NCBI GenBank assembly: GCA_937901475.1
Contig: CALGTL010000036.1
Coordinates: forward strand, 1 to 45,606
Length of the DNA: 45,606 nucleotides
Direction of reading: 5' to 3'
From: an uncultured Dehalococcoidia bacterium
Lineage (GTDB): Bacteria > Chloroflexota > Dehalococcoidia > Lucifugimonadales > Australimonadaceae
This document shows, one piece after another, positions 15,975 through 26,538 of this stretch. Position 1 is the stretch's first letter; every line of letters starts with the position of its first letter. The position numbers were made by a program, and so were the translations under genes. The notes under the pieces are model-generated. The model was given only the letters and a program-made list of their open reading frames with translations, made no database searches and was not told the origin of the DNA.

Positions 15975-16098
15975 CTGCTTTGCTCAGAACGCTATCAACC
16001 CTCGGCGAGGATTTCCCTTGGGTTCGATCACCAGTCATAGAAGTACAAAATCAGGCAGAACCGCTTCTCGGGTACCGGGCTGCCCCAAGGGGATCTAT

Positions 16099-16713
16099 AT
16101 GGCAAACTCACCGATTCGCGAAGTATTTATTCCACCCATGGAAGGCCGTTCTTTTGAATTAGGCGCAGGTCAAATGCTTCGCCTCATCGCGATTGAAGGG
16201 AAACAGGTCGGTGATCTCACGGCCTGGAATCTCCACAATCACGATGAACAAATGAGCGTCATCTTCAGCACTGCCATGAACAATCGCTCCGTAAGTCACG
16301 TCCATCGCATATTCTCGGGAGCTCCTTATTTCAACGAGATGTTCGTTCTAGAAAACGACACTTACGGCGTGCATTGGCTTGGCGGTCGATGCAATCGATT
16401 CTTGTATCAGGCTATGGGGGCCCCAGAGCACCGCAACTGTCACGACAATATTCTAGAGGCCGTCGAAAGTCACAATCTTACTGAGCGGCAAGTGCAACTC
16501 GACACGCTCAACGTATTCATGAACGTACTCTACGAGCCCAGCGGCACGTTCACCTTCGCGCCACCGGTCATCGAAAGTGGAGACTACGTCGACTTCAGAG
16601 CTGTCATGGATATTCTAGTTGCAATTTCCGCCTGCCCCAACGAAGGCGACCTCCGCGGGGAGATCAATGATTACGTAGCCAAATCTCTCAAAGTAGAGAT
16701 CTACTCTCCATAA
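16099..16713 (+). CDS. DUF1989 / urea carboxylase-associated family protein
   Basis: A 204-residue protein. The family pattern is visible in REVFIPPMEGRSFELGAGQ, the DLTAWN segment, and the Cys/His region GGRCNRFLY followed by HRNCHDN; the C-terminal half includes LNVFMNV and GDYVDFRA. Relatives sit beside urea/guanidine carboxylase or aminomethyltransferase genes and their biochemical role is poorly known, so a function in C1-N compound breakdown is only suggested. AAGGGG lies just before the ATG at 16099. It sits 12 bases upstream of the following MFS gene, which suggests an operon. Confidence 0.85.
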   Translation: MANSPIREVFIPPMEGRSFELGAGQMLRLIAIEGKQVGDLTAWNLHNHDEQMSVIFSTAMNNRSVSHVHRIFSGAPYFNEMFVLENDTYGVHWLGGRCNRFLYQAMGAPEHRNCHDNILEAVESHNLTERQVQLDTLNVFMNVLYEPSGTFTFAPPVIESGDYVDFRAVMDILVAISACPNEGDLRGEINDYVAKSLKVEIYSP

Positions 16714-16725
16714 ACCCGCATCCCG

Positions 16726-18075
16726 TTGAAAGAGAGTCCTCGTGATAGCATTTGCTCAACCCAACGATCCAGGCTGCACACATTGATTAAACCCGAAAGA
16801 GCCAAGCCTCGAATATTCTTCGGCTGGCATCTCGTAGCTGCGGGTTTCTTTATCCAAATACTCCATTCCTCTCTCCTTTTTCTATCACAGGGCGCATACC
16901 TCGTCGAACTCCAAGCCGCCTTTGGCTGGAGCCGTAGCAGCATCTCTGCAGGCTTCTCGCTACTGCGGTTAGAATCCGGCTTTCTTGGACCGCTTCAAGG
17001 GTGGATGATAGACCGATTCGGGCCGCGCCCGGTCATGCGGCTCGGCGCATTGCTCTTCGGCCTCGGGTTCATCGCTTTCGGCCAGATTCAATCGCTCTGG
17101 CAGTTCTATGCAGCACTCGCCGTTGTTGCCATCGGGTCGAGCCTTGGCGGTTTCCTCACTATCCACACCGCCATCGCACACTGGTTCCACCGCAAGCGGG
17201 CGCGGGCCATGTCTATCGGCTCAGCTGGGTTCGCATCTGGTGCGGTCATCGCACCTCTGGTTGCCTGGTCCATAGTCGAGTTCAGCTGGCGTACCACTGC
17301 CGTAATATCAGGAATATTGATTCTGGCCATCGGTATTCCTGGTGCCCAATTTTTCAAGCGCTCTCCTGAGCACTATGGCATGCTACCTGACGGTGATACA
17401 CCACCAGACGCAGATACAGCCTCTACATCTGGTAGCGCAGTCATTCATCCAGCGGTCGTTGGGAGCAATACTGACTTCACGGTGAGAGAGGCGATGCGCG
17501 ATCGATCTTTCTGGTTCATCGCCATAGGCCACGGCACTGCCCTTCTAGTCACTGCCACAGTGCCAGTTCATCTTGTTCCTTTCCTGGTAGACCAAAACGG
17601 ATGGAGCCTTGCCGCAACTTCATTCGTGTTCCCTGCCATCATGGTCATGCAGATTGCGGGGCAGATGATTGGAGGGGTGGTTGGCGATCGTTACACCAAG
17701 CGGTTTGTCGCCGCCGTCGCAATGTTCGGTCATGGAGGGGCTTTCATCATCCTAGCCTTCAGTTCCACGGTCCCCGCAGTCATCGCAGCCGTAGCCTTAC
17801 ATGGCCTCGCTTGGGGGGCTCGCGGCCCGTTGATGATGGCCATTCGAGCCGATTATTTTGGCAGACGCAATCTGGGGATGATCGCAGGCTGGTCTAACGG
17901 TATCACCCTCACAGGGAGCGTCATCGGTCCGCTTTACGCCGGTCTCTTGTTCGACAGACAAGGTGATTACAATTTCGCATTTTGGACCCTCGGAGTCGCG
18001 ACTATTCTCTGTACCGTTTTCTTCATTGCAGCCCGCAAGCCACCACTGCCAAGTCGAACCATCGGTCAGACCTAA
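16726..18075 (+). CDS. MFS transporter, OFA/monocarboxylate-type
   Basis: A permease of about 430-449 residues with 12 hydrophobic segments, closely related to the MFS at 2544-3857 (shared FFGWHLVAAGFF-type start, FGWSRSSISAGF, WMIDRFGPRP loop and YGMLPDGD central motif). An organic-anion substrate is likely by family. The start is unclear: TTG at 16726 or TTG at 16783 are in frame, neither with a strong ribosome-binding site. It is the third gene of the plus-strand SDR-DUF1989-MFS group. It ends only six bases before the stop of the convergent selenoprotein gene. Confidence 0.88.
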   Translation: MKESPRDSICSTQRSRLHTLIKPERAKPRIFFGWHLVAAGFFIQILHSSLLFLSQGAYLVELQAAFGWSRSSISAGFSLLRLESGFLGPLQGWMIDRFGPRPVMRLGALLFGLGFIAFGQIQSLWQFYAALAVVAIGSSLGGFLTIHTAIAHWFHRKRARAMSIGSAGFASGAVIAPLVAWSIVEFSWRTTAVISGILILAIGIPGAQFFKRSPEHYGMLPDGDTPPDADTASTSGSAVIHPAVVGSNTDFTVREAMRDRSFWFIAIGHGTALLVTATVPVHLVPFLVDQNGWSLAATSFVFPAIMVMQIAGQMIGGVVGDRYTKRFVAAVAMFGHGGAFIILAFSSTVPAVIAAVALHGLAWGARGPLMMAIRADYFGRRNLGMIAGWSNGITLTGSVIGPLYAGLLFDRQGDYNFAFWTLGVATILCTVFFIAARKPPLPSRTIGQT

Positions 18076-18081
18076 TCTCTT

Positions 18082-19272
18082 CTATCGAGCGATACCGAAT
18101 GCGGCACCCTTGAGTAATTCATCATCGGACTCGCTCAGACGCGCCGCTATTTTTGCAAGCATTGCTCCTGTCGCAGTCTCGGTCCAAAACCAAGATTGCA
18201 GATCGTTATTCTGCTGTTCTGGACGCTGGCACATCCGCGCTTCCATGTAGAACGCCTTGATATCGTCAGCTGCTAGTTTGAGGAATCGTTGCTCCGGCAT
18301 TCCTGCAGGCATGTCTTCGAACGTGACAGAGTCGCCGTTCGCATAGGCCTGTAGGTACTTCATCAGCCCACGCCAGCGGCGCTGGGGCACACCAGAGATT
18401 CCCACGCCTGTTCGACCGTCGTGATCCTCGACCCAACGCTCGAAGTAGCCGCGCAGGGCCGTCACTTCATCAACGGGATCAAGGTCGACCTCTTTCGACA
18501 GATCAGCATGCGCCAACCCTGCTTGGAGCAATTGAGCAGGCGCATCGGCTTCGTCAGGGAACTCGGCCAGCACCGGTGCCGAGTCCGACCCAAAAAGGTC
18601 CAATGTGGCCGCTAACACTTTGTGTTGAAACTCTGAATCATCTGGTTTTCCCAATGCAAACCCAAACGGAAATGGAACGAATAACGCACGAGGAGGCTTC
18701 ACACGCTGTGCCTGTTCCTTGATAAGCACGATCGCCGATGTCGGCAAGCCTGATTCCTCAATCGTCCGAGCCAGCACACAGACTGTGTGCGTGCAGTTAG
18801 GTCAGGTAGGGGTCAAAAGTACCCCGTCAACCTTTTCCGCTAAGAGGAGGCGTGCCACCTCAGGCCCGGTTTCCTCTTGAATATGCTTCGGGTTCCTCAA
18901 CGCACCCATAAACGAGTAGAAGTTCTCAGAGAGGCCCCCTAGCACACCACGCTCCACCAATTCGTGTAGGCGGTCGATGGGAAACGAGATGTTCACATCA
19001 CGCATAAAAGCAGTGCGATCGAAGCCGATCGAGGTATGACTCTGCACGATATCACGAGGATGGGTATTCGACGGAATCACCCTAAATGTCTGGTCACCGC
19101 TCGTAAAAGGGTCATCCTCCCTAATGTGCAATCCCGCAGTCGTTACCAGGGCTAATTTCGCCTCTGAAAGAGGTTTGTTCAGCGACACGAAAGGTGCATC
19201 ACTGTGCTCAAAAACAGGAAAATTCAAATGCCCCTGTCGAGCAATTTCCGTCAGGTCTTCCAATCGAGGCAT
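18082..19272 (-). CDS. Selenoprotein of the PrdB/GrdB (D-proline/glycine/betaine reductase) family, in-frame UGA = Sec
   Basis: Two open stretches in the same frame, 18805-19272 and 18082-18801, are joined by a single TGA at 18802-18804. They make one 396-residue protein with selenocysteine at residue 157. The Sec motif is TPT-U-PNC-THTVC (UxxC). The part before it matches D-proline reductase PrdB closely in my recollection: ALVTTAGLHI (41-50), FRVIP (63-67), ISFPIDRLHELVERG (95-109) and EETGPEVA (133-140). The part after continues VLARTIEESGLPT. PrdB is usually about 240 residues; the C-terminal 150 here are extra. A hairpin just after the UGA supports recoding. The enzyme probably reduces a C-N bond or acts as a thiol/selenol redox protein; no PrdA or GrdA partners are visible. 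AAGGA precedes the ATG. Confidence 0.88.
18774..18790 (-). promoter_or_regulatory. Bacterial SECIS-like hairpin within the selenoprotein mRNA
   Basis: The segment GCACACAGTCTGTGTGC begins 11 bases after the UGA on the minus strand. It folds as GCACAC / GTGTGC (six G-C or A-T pairs) with the five-base loop AGTCT. Loop distance (about 18-22 bases after the UGA) and a G near the loop start fit the loose bacterial SECIS consensus. The repeat is perfect and lies inside coding sequence, which is unlikely by chance at just this place. Confidence 0.7.
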
Positions 19273-19366
19273 GGGAGTGTTCCTTCGTTCATTGCTACCG
19301 GCAACTGTTTATAGGTATGCGTCAAACATAGACGGCGATTCTAGTTCATGGCTTTGACTATCAAAT

Positions 19367-19789
19367 CTAATCGTCGGTAGCCGGTTGCTTGCGCGAGCGT
19401 TTCGTCGCTGATCGCCGCCGTTTCTTTTGGATTCCCTGGGCAAGCATCGAGCGTGTTGGGCCCATTAAGCGACGGATGTTTGGGCGCACAGTGGCTCGCA
19501 CAAGCAGGCCTACCAGGCGGTCGATCGCGTCATCTCGATTCCGCTCCTGACTACGAAATCGCTGCGCATTAATAATCACTATGCCTCCAGCAGTCATCCG
19601 TCGCCCGGCGATTCCACGCAAGCGATTTTTGACCTCGGCTGGTAGTGCGGGTGAAGCGTTAGCGTCAAACACTAATCGAGCTGCAGTAGCCACCTTGTTC
19701 ACGTTCTGCCCTCCGGGACCCTGTGAGGGCAAATAGGTGAAAGACAGTTCGGACTCCGAAATAAATATACGATTAGCAATCCTGATCAT
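19367..19789 (-). CDS. arfB: Alternative ribosome-rescue factor / peptidyl-tRNA hydrolase ArfB
   Basis: A 140-residue homologue of the codon-independent release factor ArfB (YaeJ). The catalytic GGQ lies in LPSQGPGGQNVNKVATAARL (about residues 20-39). The core continues with IVIINAQRFRSQERNRDDAIDRL. The C-terminus is a long basic tail (QKKRRRSATKRSRKQ), which in ArfB enters the empty mRNA channel of stalled ribosomes. There is no stop-codon recognition domain, so it is not RF1 or RF2. It diverges from the LLM gene at 19879. Confidence 0.93.
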   Translation of the reverse strand: MIRIANRIFISESELSFTYLPSQGPGGQNVNKVATAARLVFDANASPALPAEVKNRLRGIAGRRMTAGGIVIINAQRFRSQERNRDDAIDRLVGLLVRATVRPNIRRLMGPTRSMLAQGIQKKRRRSATKRSRKQPATDD

Positions 19790-21253: not shown

Positions 21254-22330
21254 TTATATGGCACACGGCACGCCAAACTCAGCGCACGTAGTACGGAACC
21301 AGTCGACAACTTGGTTGTGCAACGGAATACCGTTTGCAGAACGATCGAGGAACATCTCATGTTCCGGTTGACCAGCCACTAATACTCGTTCATGACCAGG
21401 AGCAGGGGGCGTAGCCTTCAACTCGCGAATCCAACCGTCCATGTTCGCCTTGAATTCGTCAATGTCTCCGAACGCCGAAACATCATAGGCCGCTAAGTAA
21501 TGACGAAACGACCATCGCGGCAGCTGCGTCGCCCAACGGGCGCCAGACATCATGCTACACAATATCTCCACCGCACTCGCGAGCCCGTATCCTTTGTGAG
21601 AGCCCTGCTCACGAGTTGAACCCAATGGCAACAGGTTGAATGTTTCGGGAGCCAATACAGGTTCCATAATGGGAACTCCTGCCGCGTCCGCGATGTGTCC
21701 TGGAGGCAATGTGCTCCCCATCCGGTGGGCATTGTGAAGTTTGTTCACAGGAACGATGCTAGTGGCCATGTCGAACACCCACGGCTCTTCTTCGCCAGCT
21801 GGAGCAGCCATCGCGATTGGGTTTGTTCCCAGCTTCGGCACGCTACCAAACGTTGGCAGGACTGACGCCCCAGCTGCGGTCATACACATTCCTATCATGT
21901 CGTGAGGCAGCGCAAGCATCGCATGATAGGCCGCCATCCCCAGGTGGCCTGCATTATTCACAGTAACCACGCCCACACCAGTGTCACGTGCCTTCGCTAT
22001 CGCTATCTCCATTGCCTTTGGGGCGATGATGATTCCCAAGCCAAGATCAGCATCTATGTTCGCAATCGACGCGCGTTCACTAACCACCTTCCAGTCGGGG
22101 TGCGCATTCTGCGTGCCGTCCCCGAAACGTTCAATGTATGTCTTGAGCATATTGGAAACGCCATGGCTGTCCACTCCTCGCAGGTCTGCCATCACTAACA
22201 CATCCGCCGCACAGGCAGCGTCATCAGCTGACACGCCTAACTTCTGGAACAACGCTACCGTCGACCGCCGAAGCTCCTCACCATCTACCCGTAAAGCATC
22301 TGCTTCTTTGAGATGAAAACTTTGAACCAT
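21254..22330 (-). CDS. Ldh family NAD(P)-dependent oxidoreductase (malate/L-lactate/sulfolactate dehydrogenase type)
   Basis: A 358-residue enzyme of the unusual Ldh_2 fold. The conserved histidines are in RGVDSHGV (H56) and VNNAGHLG (H129), and the nucleotide-binding stretch KLGTNPIAMAAP is followed by VFDMATS. The family oxidises 2-hydroxyacids such as malate, lactate, ureidoglycolate or (R)-sulfolactate (ComC). The ATG at 22330 has AAGGGA upstream and starts 10 bases after the GlcG-like stop. The presence of ComDE-like decarboxylases in the window makes sulfolactate a candidate substrate, but only by association. Confidence 0.88.
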   Translation of the reverse strand: MVQSFHLKEADALRVDGEELRRSTVALFQKLGVSADDAACAADVLVMADLRGVDSHGVSNMLKTYIERFGDGTQNAHPDWKVVSERASIANIDADLGLGIIIAPKAMEIAIAKARDTGVGVVTVNNAGHLGMAAYHAMLALPHDMIGMCMTAAGASVLPTFGSVPKLGTNPIAMAAPAGEEEPWVFDMATSIVPVNKLHNAHRMGSTLPPGHIADAAGVPIMEPVLAPETFNLLPLGSTREQGSHKGYGLASAVEILCSMMSGARWATQLPRWSFRHYLAAYDVSAFGDIDEFKANMDGWIRELKATPPAPGHERVLVAGQPEHEMFLDRSANGIPLHNQVVDWFRTTCAEFGVPCAI

Positions 22331-22340
22331 GGTACGTCCC

Positions 22341-22745
22341 TTACAACACAGCGAGGCCAGCGGCGGCCACAGCTTCGTCCTCATCAGATTTCGCACCACT
22401 AACGCCGATGGCTCCAATCATCACGCCGTCTGCGCGCTTAATGGGTAGAGCACCCTGCCATGGAATCAATCGACCCTGTTCCATCATAGATAGGCCGCGA
22501 ACCACCGGGTTTCCCCAGCGCTCCGTCAGTTCTCCACTAGGCGCATCAAACGCAGCCGATGCAGCAGCTTTACCCTGCGAGATTGGTACCGATCGCCAGA
22601 GCGCGTTATCCATCCGATTTAAAGCGACTAGGTCACCACGAGGATCTAGGATCGCAATCGTACAAGGATTGATTTTCATCTCTGTTGCCTTAGCCACAGC
22701 CGCGGCAAGCATTCGGTTCGCCTCAACAAGTGTCAATGAATCCAT
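22341..22745 (-). CDS. GlcG/HbpS family protein
   Basis: A 134-residue protein of the heme-binding HbpS/GlcG group (DUF336). Family landmarks are SLTLVEANRMLAAAVAKATEM at the start, the AILDPRGDLVALNRMD region, and the C-terminal GALPIKRADGVMIGAIGVSGAKSDEDEAVA, all in order. The role is unclear: some relatives bind heme, others accompany glycolate or glycerol dehydratase systems. The ATG at 22745 is chosen because GGAGG is eight bases upstream. It is followed closely by the Ldh-type dehydrogenase, a neighbour also seen for GlcG elsewhere. Confidence 0.88.
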   Translation of the reverse strand: MDSLTLVEANRMLAAAVAKATEMKINPCTIAILDPRGDLVALNRMDNALWRSVPISQGKAAASAAFDAPSGELTERWGNPVVRGLSMMEQGRLIPWQGALPIKRADGVMIGAIGVSGAKSDEDEAVAAAGLAVL

Positions 22746-25404: not shown

Positions 25405-26538
25405 TTACTCCGCCATGACATGTGGAGGGATAATCACGGCCACTGGTGCACGCAAAACGCGCGCAGAGCGTTGTGATTCACTGATGTACAAATCTGCATC
25501 GTCCAAGTGCCGCAGCACCACCGTATGGATGTTCAATGCGCGCAGTAACGGCTCATTGACCATCGTTGCGATGTCATTGTGGGGTAGCCGGATACCCATC
25601 TCCTGTGGGTGGCTAGAGATGATTAGCATTGGTACGCGACTCAGGATTTCGTGCGCGATTATCAGCCCTGAGAACCCAATACCGGTGCCCTCCATCAATA
25701 TCGCAGGCTTGCGACCAGCATGTGCTGCACCACCTGCTATGGCGATGCCCTCGTCTTCCCGGTTGCAGCACACCGCCACCATCTCTGGGTCGAACTCCGC
25801 TTCCTCAATAATCGGATACAACTCGCCATCAGGCAGGTACACGATGAAATCGATGCCAGCGTCCTTGATCGCTTGGTAGATGCGCGAGCCCGCCGACTTA
25901 CCGAAACGTTCGCCCTTCTCGCGCGCCTGAGACGGCAGGGCAATATTCGGCCTATTGGTATTAGCTAGTGGATGCTCGTGGACCCAACGGTCGAATTCCA
26001 TCGCAAAGTCCGTACGGTCGGGGCGAGTACTCTGTTTATCAGGGTCCAACACGCGAGATTTATCCACGTTCGCTACTACCATCGTTGGGCCATCAGTGGC
26101 CATCGCATATTTAATTACCAGATCCAAATCTTCCGGGTTATCTGCAGTCTCTGCGTATGTGAATCCCGTAGCCAGCGCAACTCCCGGCAGGTCGGTGGAT
26201 ACCGTCGCTGAATCCAAGTAGCCCTTGAACGAACCCAAGTACGTTTGGTTGTTCATTACGAGCAAAGTAAGATTCTTCGGCGCGTAGCGACCTATCGTAG
26301 CTAAGTTTGCCATCCCCATCAGCATCGCACCATCGCCTTCGACCGCCACAACCTGTAAATCCGGGCGCATCATCGCGAAGCCCAGCGCACCAGCTGCTGA
26401 ATACGACATACCTGTGAAATACATGGTCTGCGGGATATGGCCCACCTCCCACATCGTCGGGGTCTGGCCCGACGATACCATGGCTACTGCACTGCCGCGG
26501 ATATTTGCGAATACACGCAGCGCTTCTCGCATTTCCAT
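25405..26538 (-). CDS. Fused ThDP-dependent decarboxylase with permuted domain order (beta-alpha)
   Basis: A 377-residue protein combining both halves of a ComDE-like ThDP enzyme in reversed order. The diphosphate-binding half comes first: GDG at 68-70 with NN at 96-97, separated by the usual 25 residues. The pyrimidine half comes second, with the activating acidic motif NREDEGIAIAGG near 259-270 and MEGTGIGFSG. In the split system at 9967-11060, and in fused bacterial ComDE proteins, the pyrimidine half is first. The likely reaction is 2-oxoacid decarboxylation, such as sulfopyruvate-like acids. The stop of a possible 44-codon frame overlaps its ribosome-binding region. Confidence 0.85.
   Translation of the reverse strand: MEMREALRVFANIRGSAVAMVSSGQTPTMWEVGHIPQTMYFTGMSYSAAGALGFAMMRPDLQVVAVEGDGAMLMGMANLATIGRYAPKNLTLLVMNNQTYLGSFKGYLDSATVSTDLPGVALATGFTYAETADNPEDLDLVIKYAMATDGPTMVVANVDKSRVLDPDKQSTRPDRTDFAMEFDRWVHEHPLANTNRPNIALPSQAREKGERFGKSAGSRIYQAIKDAGIDFIVYLPDGELYPIIEEAEFDPEMVAVCCNREDEGIAIAGGAAHAGRKPAILMEGTGIGFSGLIIAHEILSRVPMLIISSHPQEMGIRLPHNDIATMVNEPLLRALNIHTVVLRHLDDADLYISESQRSARVLRAPVAVIIPPHVMAE

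Follow-up and report, generated by a model that had tools for sequence, protein, structure and literature searches.

Results

A single reading frame interrupted by an in-frame UGA

The window, that is, the whole stretch of 45,606 nucleotides that was analysed, carries on its minus strand from 19272 to 18082 a single frame of 396 codons, which begins with ATG (19272-19270), ends with TAG (18084-18082) and is interrupted solely by a TGA at codon 157 (18804-18802). This bears out the earlier note on this DNA, which had described, without naming a strand, two stretches in the same frame parted only by a TGA; reading the TGA as U also gives the join that the note had proposed, TPT-U-PNC, within the sequence LLTPT-U-PNC. 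Under translation table 11 the frame is split into an ORF of 156 aa and another of 231 aa that starts at a later GTG. The locus comprises the following features:

16726..18075, plus strand: convergent MFS transporter, ending 6 nt from the selenoprotein stop (PF07690, 3.6e-44)
18082..19272, minus strand: whole gene of the putative PrdB-like selenoprotein, 396 aa, read with TGA as U (full-length homologues with the same TGA)
18085..18477, minus strand: C-terminal all-helical domain, residues 266-396 (about 130), specific to the long subfamily (pLDDT 94.8 when modelled alone; no Pfam or PDB match)
18595..19197, minus strand: PrdB/GrdB-like alpha/beta core, residues 26-226 (TIGR04483, PF07355; AlphaFold pLDDT mostly above 90)
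18774..18790, minus strand: bacterial SECIS-type hairpin, 6-bp stem GCACAC/GUGUGC with 5-nt loop AGUCU, the stem beginning 14 nt after the T of the TGA
18793..18795, minus strand: codon of Cys160, the putative resolving Cys for Sec157 within UxxC (no variation among the 34 aligned long homologues)
18802..18804, minus strand: in-frame UGA, predicted selenocysteine 157 of the motif U157-P-N-C160 (U in 34 of 34 aligned long homologues; tRNA-Sec, selA, selB and selD in the genome)
19281..19285, minus strand: Shine-Dalgarno-like AAGGA, 8 nt 5' of the ATG, by direct reading
19367..19789, minus strand: upstream neighbour on the same strand after a 94-nt gap, an RF-1-domain (GGQ) protein of the ArfB/YaeJ type (PF00472, 1.2e-18)

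Throughout, the invariance of residues refers to an alignment of 34 long homologues, while the tree includes 42 distinct long forms.

Decoding of the UGA as selenocysteine

The source genome (2.31 Mb in 208 contigs, 97% complete) encodes a tRNA-Sec (71 bits, above the cut-off; called tRNA-SeC with anticodon TCA by ARAGORN), selB (354 bits, matched over its entire length), selA (506 bits) and selD (306 bits). All four of selA, selB, selC and selD, which the earlier note had singled out as a check, are therefore present, and the Sec machinery, whose absence the note had held decisive against its proposal, is complete. The selD gene itself (L019, G000:C143:1-696) contains an in-frame TGA of its own, and the selenophosphate synthetase is thus probably a selenoprotein as well.

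A TGA occupies the same codon in all of the distinct C-terminally extended homologues that were collected (42/42). In a tblastn search of the joined protein against a SAR202 metagenome-assembled genome (MAG), 396 of 396 residues aligned at 62% identity to a full-length homologue on MPMJ01000025.1 (SAR202 cluster bacterium bin16), with the TGA at the identical codon. The comparison of U with C at residue 157 gave U in every long homologue and Cys only in separate ones, and homologues ending at this position as genuine short proteins, the other finding that the earlier note had considered fatal, were not encountered. Judged from its codons, the extended subfamily is strictly Sec-dependent (42/42 distinct sequences). 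Relative to the homologue L009, one of seven compared, the first, second and third codon positions were substituted at rates of 0.26, 0.19 and 0.62 before the TGA and 0.29, 0.20 and 0.66 after it, and the seven homologues all gave comparable rates on either side. By this measure, the sequences before and after the UGA are under purifying selection to the same degree.

The hairpin downstream of the UGA is well conserved: in 45 distinct sequences, 96.7% of the cells are paired, and the covariation score is 0.672 compared to 0.202 for shuffled alignments and at most 0.134 for slid versions. Of the 6 pairs, 54 Sec genes keep 5-6, compared with 2-5 in 16 Cys homologues of the same phylum, 15 of which belong to a single clade. 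The window's own hairpin is not exceptionally stable when compared with shuffles (z -1.05), so the case for a SECIS element is built on the covariation and the Cys control; the GU of the loop also belongs to a conserved Val codon. A clade of short Cys forms (L118-L130, LTAGCPLCHR) is devoid of SECIS pairing and marks a switch from Sec to Cys or the reverse.

Accordingly, an explanation in which the UGA really terminates translation or stems from faulty assembly, leaving a short protein of 156 aa or a pseudogene, has very little to recommend it. It would agree with the two ORFs given by table 11, but is contradicted by the TGA that every long homologue, across many genera, carries at this codon, by the equal constraint on either side, by the SECIS covariation and by the complete Sec machinery. 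A stop codon, a pseudogene and a sequencing error were rejected on the conserved TGA, the hairpin covariation and the codon-position rates. Reading of codon 157 as Sec, as suggested in the earlier note, is thus strongly supported by the genomic evidence.

Placement of the core within the GRDB/PrdB superfamily

Among the profile models, TIGR04483 (PrdB) was the best match (1.2e-45, residues 26-226) with 155.8 bits, about half of the equivalog cut-off of 300 bits. PF07355 (GRDB) matched residues 25-156 with 40.4 bits (2.9e-10), which is above its gathering cut-off of 22, and this match stops at residue 156, the final position of the model, directly before U157. The models for GrdB, GrdF and GrdH gave weaker matches to the same stretch than TIGR04483; TIGR01917 (47.1 bits, cut-off 602) and TIGR01918 (52.8 bits, cut-off 65) both remained below their cut-offs. 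The same superfamily models, including PF07355, are matched by all 34 long forms. An UxxC motif with Sec is found at the site homologous to that of PrdB (U157-PN-C160), and beyond this motif D85, R86, D92, P194, R195, G204, G208 and Q216 are invariant in the long forms. A sequence profile search of the PDB returned chance hits only, and a fold search of the PDB with the whole model gave nothing usable (best E 0.06, TM about 0.2).

Matches below the cut-offs of the PrdB and GrdB models indicate a member of the superfamily rather than an established PrdB or GrdB. The earlier note had proposed a PrdB-like identity; the searches with PF07355 and TIGR04483 uphold this with respect to the superfamily, but not with respect to PrdB proper. 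Judged from these profiles, the protein is supported as a member of the GRDB/PrdB superfamily that is not PrdB itself, because it falls below the equivalog cut-off and the genome yields no PrdA.

With PrdB, the Sec subunit of D-proline reductase (TIGR04483), the protein shares a homologous core of about 200 residues and the Sec in UxxC. It is unlike PrdB in its score (155.8 of 300 bits), its lack of PrdA, its extra helical domain of 130 residues and its host, a free-living marine member of the Chloroflexota. The Sec position is likewise common to GrdB, GrdF and GrdH, protein B of the glycine, sarcosine and betaine reductases (PF07355, TIGR01917/01918), and the C-terminal half of GrdB can be aligned to residues 18-222. 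Unlike GrdB, the protein lacks the N-terminal half, is accompanied by neither GrdE nor GrdA, and scores far below the equivalog cut-offs as well as below that of TIGR01918.

Absence of the known reductase partners

That no PrdA, GrdA or other subunit gene is adjacent, as stated in the earlier note, holds and can be extended by profile searches to the whole genome. In the 97%-complete source genome, PF09338 (component B subunits of the GrdE type) had no match, and neither did TIGR04480 (PrdA) or PF04723 (GrdA), the latter two being models without a positive control. The gene thus appears to be a lone one, as the note had claimed. PF09338 does work as a probe, as it matches in 9 of the 400 genomes sampled from the phylum, and in several of these the match lies no more than 2 kb from weakly matching relatives of GrdB length (e.g. 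G019:C38, G193:C45, G231:C196, G252:C20). Among the 13 genomes of this sample that carry the long form, it is found in none.

These searches bear on the idea that the protein is a subunit of a D-proline- or glycine-reductase-type complex in which the pyruvoyl partner comes from another locus of the genome or has diverged beyond recognition. The similarity to PrdB (1.2e-45) and the state of the assembly, with 208 contigs and 97% completeness, would be in line with such a complex. We nevertheless regard it as improbable, as PF09338, TIGR04480 and PF04723 are all without a match and PF09338 is missing from all 13 long-form genomes of the 400-genome sample while being detectable in the phylum. In the absence of a pyruvoyl protein, reduction of D-proline or glycine by the known route is unlikely, and where PrdA/GrdE and GrdA are missing, no pyruvoyl Schiff base can hold the substrate.

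A C-terminal helical domain that defines a long subfamily

Homology to the PrdB model, which has 238 positions, ends at residue 226. The earlier note had put the C-terminus at about 150 residues longer than PrdB, and this length holds; the extension is, however, no loose tail: it forms a helical domain that is conserved and sets a monophyletic subfamily apart. AlphaFold predicts the whole protein with a mean pLDDT of 89.5 and a pTM of 0.88, and six helices for the C-terminal domain alone. Near-invariant residues of this domain include E269, G291, D337, E344 and W361. It had no match in Pfam or NCBIfam, no relative in the PDB by Foldseek (best E 3.2), and in 251 genomes searched it was never detached from a PrdB-like core.

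In a tree calculated from the core only, all 42 long forms fall into one clade (96/96), together with a frameshifted copy (L037) whose pieces also contain the C-terminal domain. A single gain of the domain, followed by its retention, is therefore probable. The long forms occur mainly in SAR202-class Chloroflexota, with one member in the Pseudomonadota (L010, a MAG of the Acidiferrobacterales). Short PrdB-like proteins with Sec or Cys, 240-290 aa in length (L035-L052, L105-L131), are also present in the Chloroflexota; they are encoded by lone genes and share the homologous core and the UxxC or CxxC motif; unlike the long forms, they have no C-terminal helical domain and are separate in the tree. 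Genomes of one SAR202-class genus (L100, L102, L103; G388:C27, G555:C59, G487:C2) contain up to five long Sec genes each, two to three of them in close tandem.

Neighbourhood and host

The RF-1-domain gene also adjoins the PrdB-like gene in two further genomes of the source genome's family, and the order with the MFS transporter is the same in several. A protein of the ArfB type, which is linked to ribosome rescue or peptide release, is encoded directly upstream of a gene that needs UGA readthrough. The convergent transporter adjoins a gene for a DUF1989 protein of the urea-carboxylase-associated type (16018-16713, plus strand). Upstream of the PrdB-like gene and on the same strand lies a malate/lactate dehydrogenase gene of the Ldh_2 type (21254-22417, minus strand), the only neighbour that recurs beyond the immediate family: two SAR202 families (including L089-L092) have it upstream at a distance of 1.2-2.4 kb. 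We did not use it as evidence because other genes always intervene. A thiamine-diphosphate enzyme (25405-26538, minus strand) has its TPP domains in reversed order, with the C-terminal one ahead of the N-terminal one, as in a fused beta-alpha decarboxylase.

When the ORFs of about 40 neighbourhoods were clustered, no same-strand partner proved to be shared, on which ground a function based on an operon was rejected; the neighbourhoods of the long form have neither an operon partner nor a pathway gene in common. The adjacent genes in relatives all differ (Fe-ADH, isochorismatase, SDR, pantothenate genes, PhzF, acetyltransferase). A weak hint at a possible electron donor comes from another family of the phylum, in which six close genomes (L116, L142-L146) have a thioredoxin gene directly upstream of a short PrdB-like Sec gene, at a distance of up to about 130 nt.

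The SAR202 MAG with the full-length homologue belongs to the same family as the source genome (G628, L081), and the window can thus be assigned to a SAR202-type member of the Chloroflexota, in agreement with the non-clostridial host that the earlier note had proposed. Luciferase-like monooxygenases, amidohydrolases and MFS transporters encoded in the window fit such a host. SAR202-class Chloroflexota are aerobic marine bacteria and rank among the most abundant groups of the deep ocean.

Discussion

In this study, we describe a 396-aa selenoprotein candidate of the GRDB/PrdB superfamily, produced by SECIS-directed recoding of a UGA, which we consider most likely to act as a stand-alone selenol reductase (probability about 0.6). 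The Sec insertion and the absence of partners are deduced from sequence. As the partner proteins are absent and a helical domain is added, the protein probably has a selenium-dependent job that is different from that of the clostridial reductases.

We infer the chemistry, the electron donor and the role of the additional domain as follows. In the AlphaFold model, residues 150-154 form a strand that is followed by the motif U157-P-N-C160 at the N-terminal end of a helix (160-173), and Cys160 sits one turn beyond Sec157. The Sec157 selenolate would, in analogy to PrdB and GrdB, attack an electrophilic substrate and either expel a leaving group or accept oxygen or sulfur; Cys160 might then resolve the adduct as a selenenylsulfide, which a thioredoxin-type dithiol would re-reduce. 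For PrdB and GrdB, the proposed mechanism involves a Sec-substrate (Sec-carbon) adduct that is cleaved by a thiol (PMC10298544), and an attack on a C-F bond has been put forward for a GrdB-like protein (PMC10838667). The latter protein, FarB of Cloacibacillus, with its proposed role in fluoroacetate defluorination, is likewise a Sec protein of the GrdB superfamily with a proposed non-Stickland use; it is paired with FarE in an operon, whereas the PrdB-like gene stands alone (PMC10838667). The C-terminal domain is the best candidate for substrate binding or oligomer formation, and it may also be structural only.

Alternatively, the protein might be a general thiol/selenol redox protein, peroxidase-like or a protein-disulfide reductase, that protects the cell and uses UxxC as thioredoxin-fold selenoproteins do, with no small organic substrate being cleaved. 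The UxxC motif itself, the monocistronic gene with its varying neighbours, the aerobic marine lifestyle of SAR202 and weak thioredoxin-domain matches in a few members would be compatible with such a role. However, the core is PrdB/GrdB-like and not that of thioredoxin, the many invariant residues beyond UxxC resemble a specific active site, and the tandem paralogues in one SAR202 genus fit diverging substrates better than housekeeping, so that we consider this role rather unlikely and favor the stand-alone reductase.

A lone marine PrdB-like selenoprotein is already known from two surveys. Among the Sargasso Sea sequences of 2005, 42 non-clostridial 'PrdB' Sec sequences with UxxC were described together with only one grdA and one grdB (PMC1088965); given this near absence of GrdA and GrdB, the marine PrdB of that set is probably partnerless, too. 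The GOS analysis of 2008 listed 235 Sec and 110 Cys forms of marine PrdB, with UxxC as the published motif (PMC2398784). These proteins belong to the same superfamily and share the motif, while the extended form is not mentioned in the passages that describe them, a contrast between descriptions and not between sequences (PMC1088965, PMC2398784). The new part is the C-terminally extended subfamily. In the open-access literature, outside which most subscription journals lie, we found no description of this strictly Sec-containing subfamily or its domain; nor did that literature yield a report on SAR202 and selenoproteins together, three main SAR202 papers being silent on selenoproteins and on these reductases.

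PrdB-like genes are among the commonest selenoprotein genes of seawater, yet they are named after an amino-acid fermentation of clostridia, and in genomes without the partner genes, such as this one, the clostridial reaction cannot run by the known route. For annotators, the split ORFs belong together, and the function can be tested on one monocistronic gene. In SAR202-class bacteria, the extended subfamily is distinct, strictly Sec-containing and sometimes multicopy, with a domain that is new to Pfam and has no PDB match. It might be speculated, as a tentative and on balance unlikely extension, that the helical domain replaces the pyruvoyl subunit, resulting in a self-contained selenoenzyme that reductively cleaves C-N or C-halogen bonds of resistant organic matter. 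If true, a selenium chemistry so far known only from anaerobic multi-subunit reductases would be used by aerobic bacteria of the ocean.
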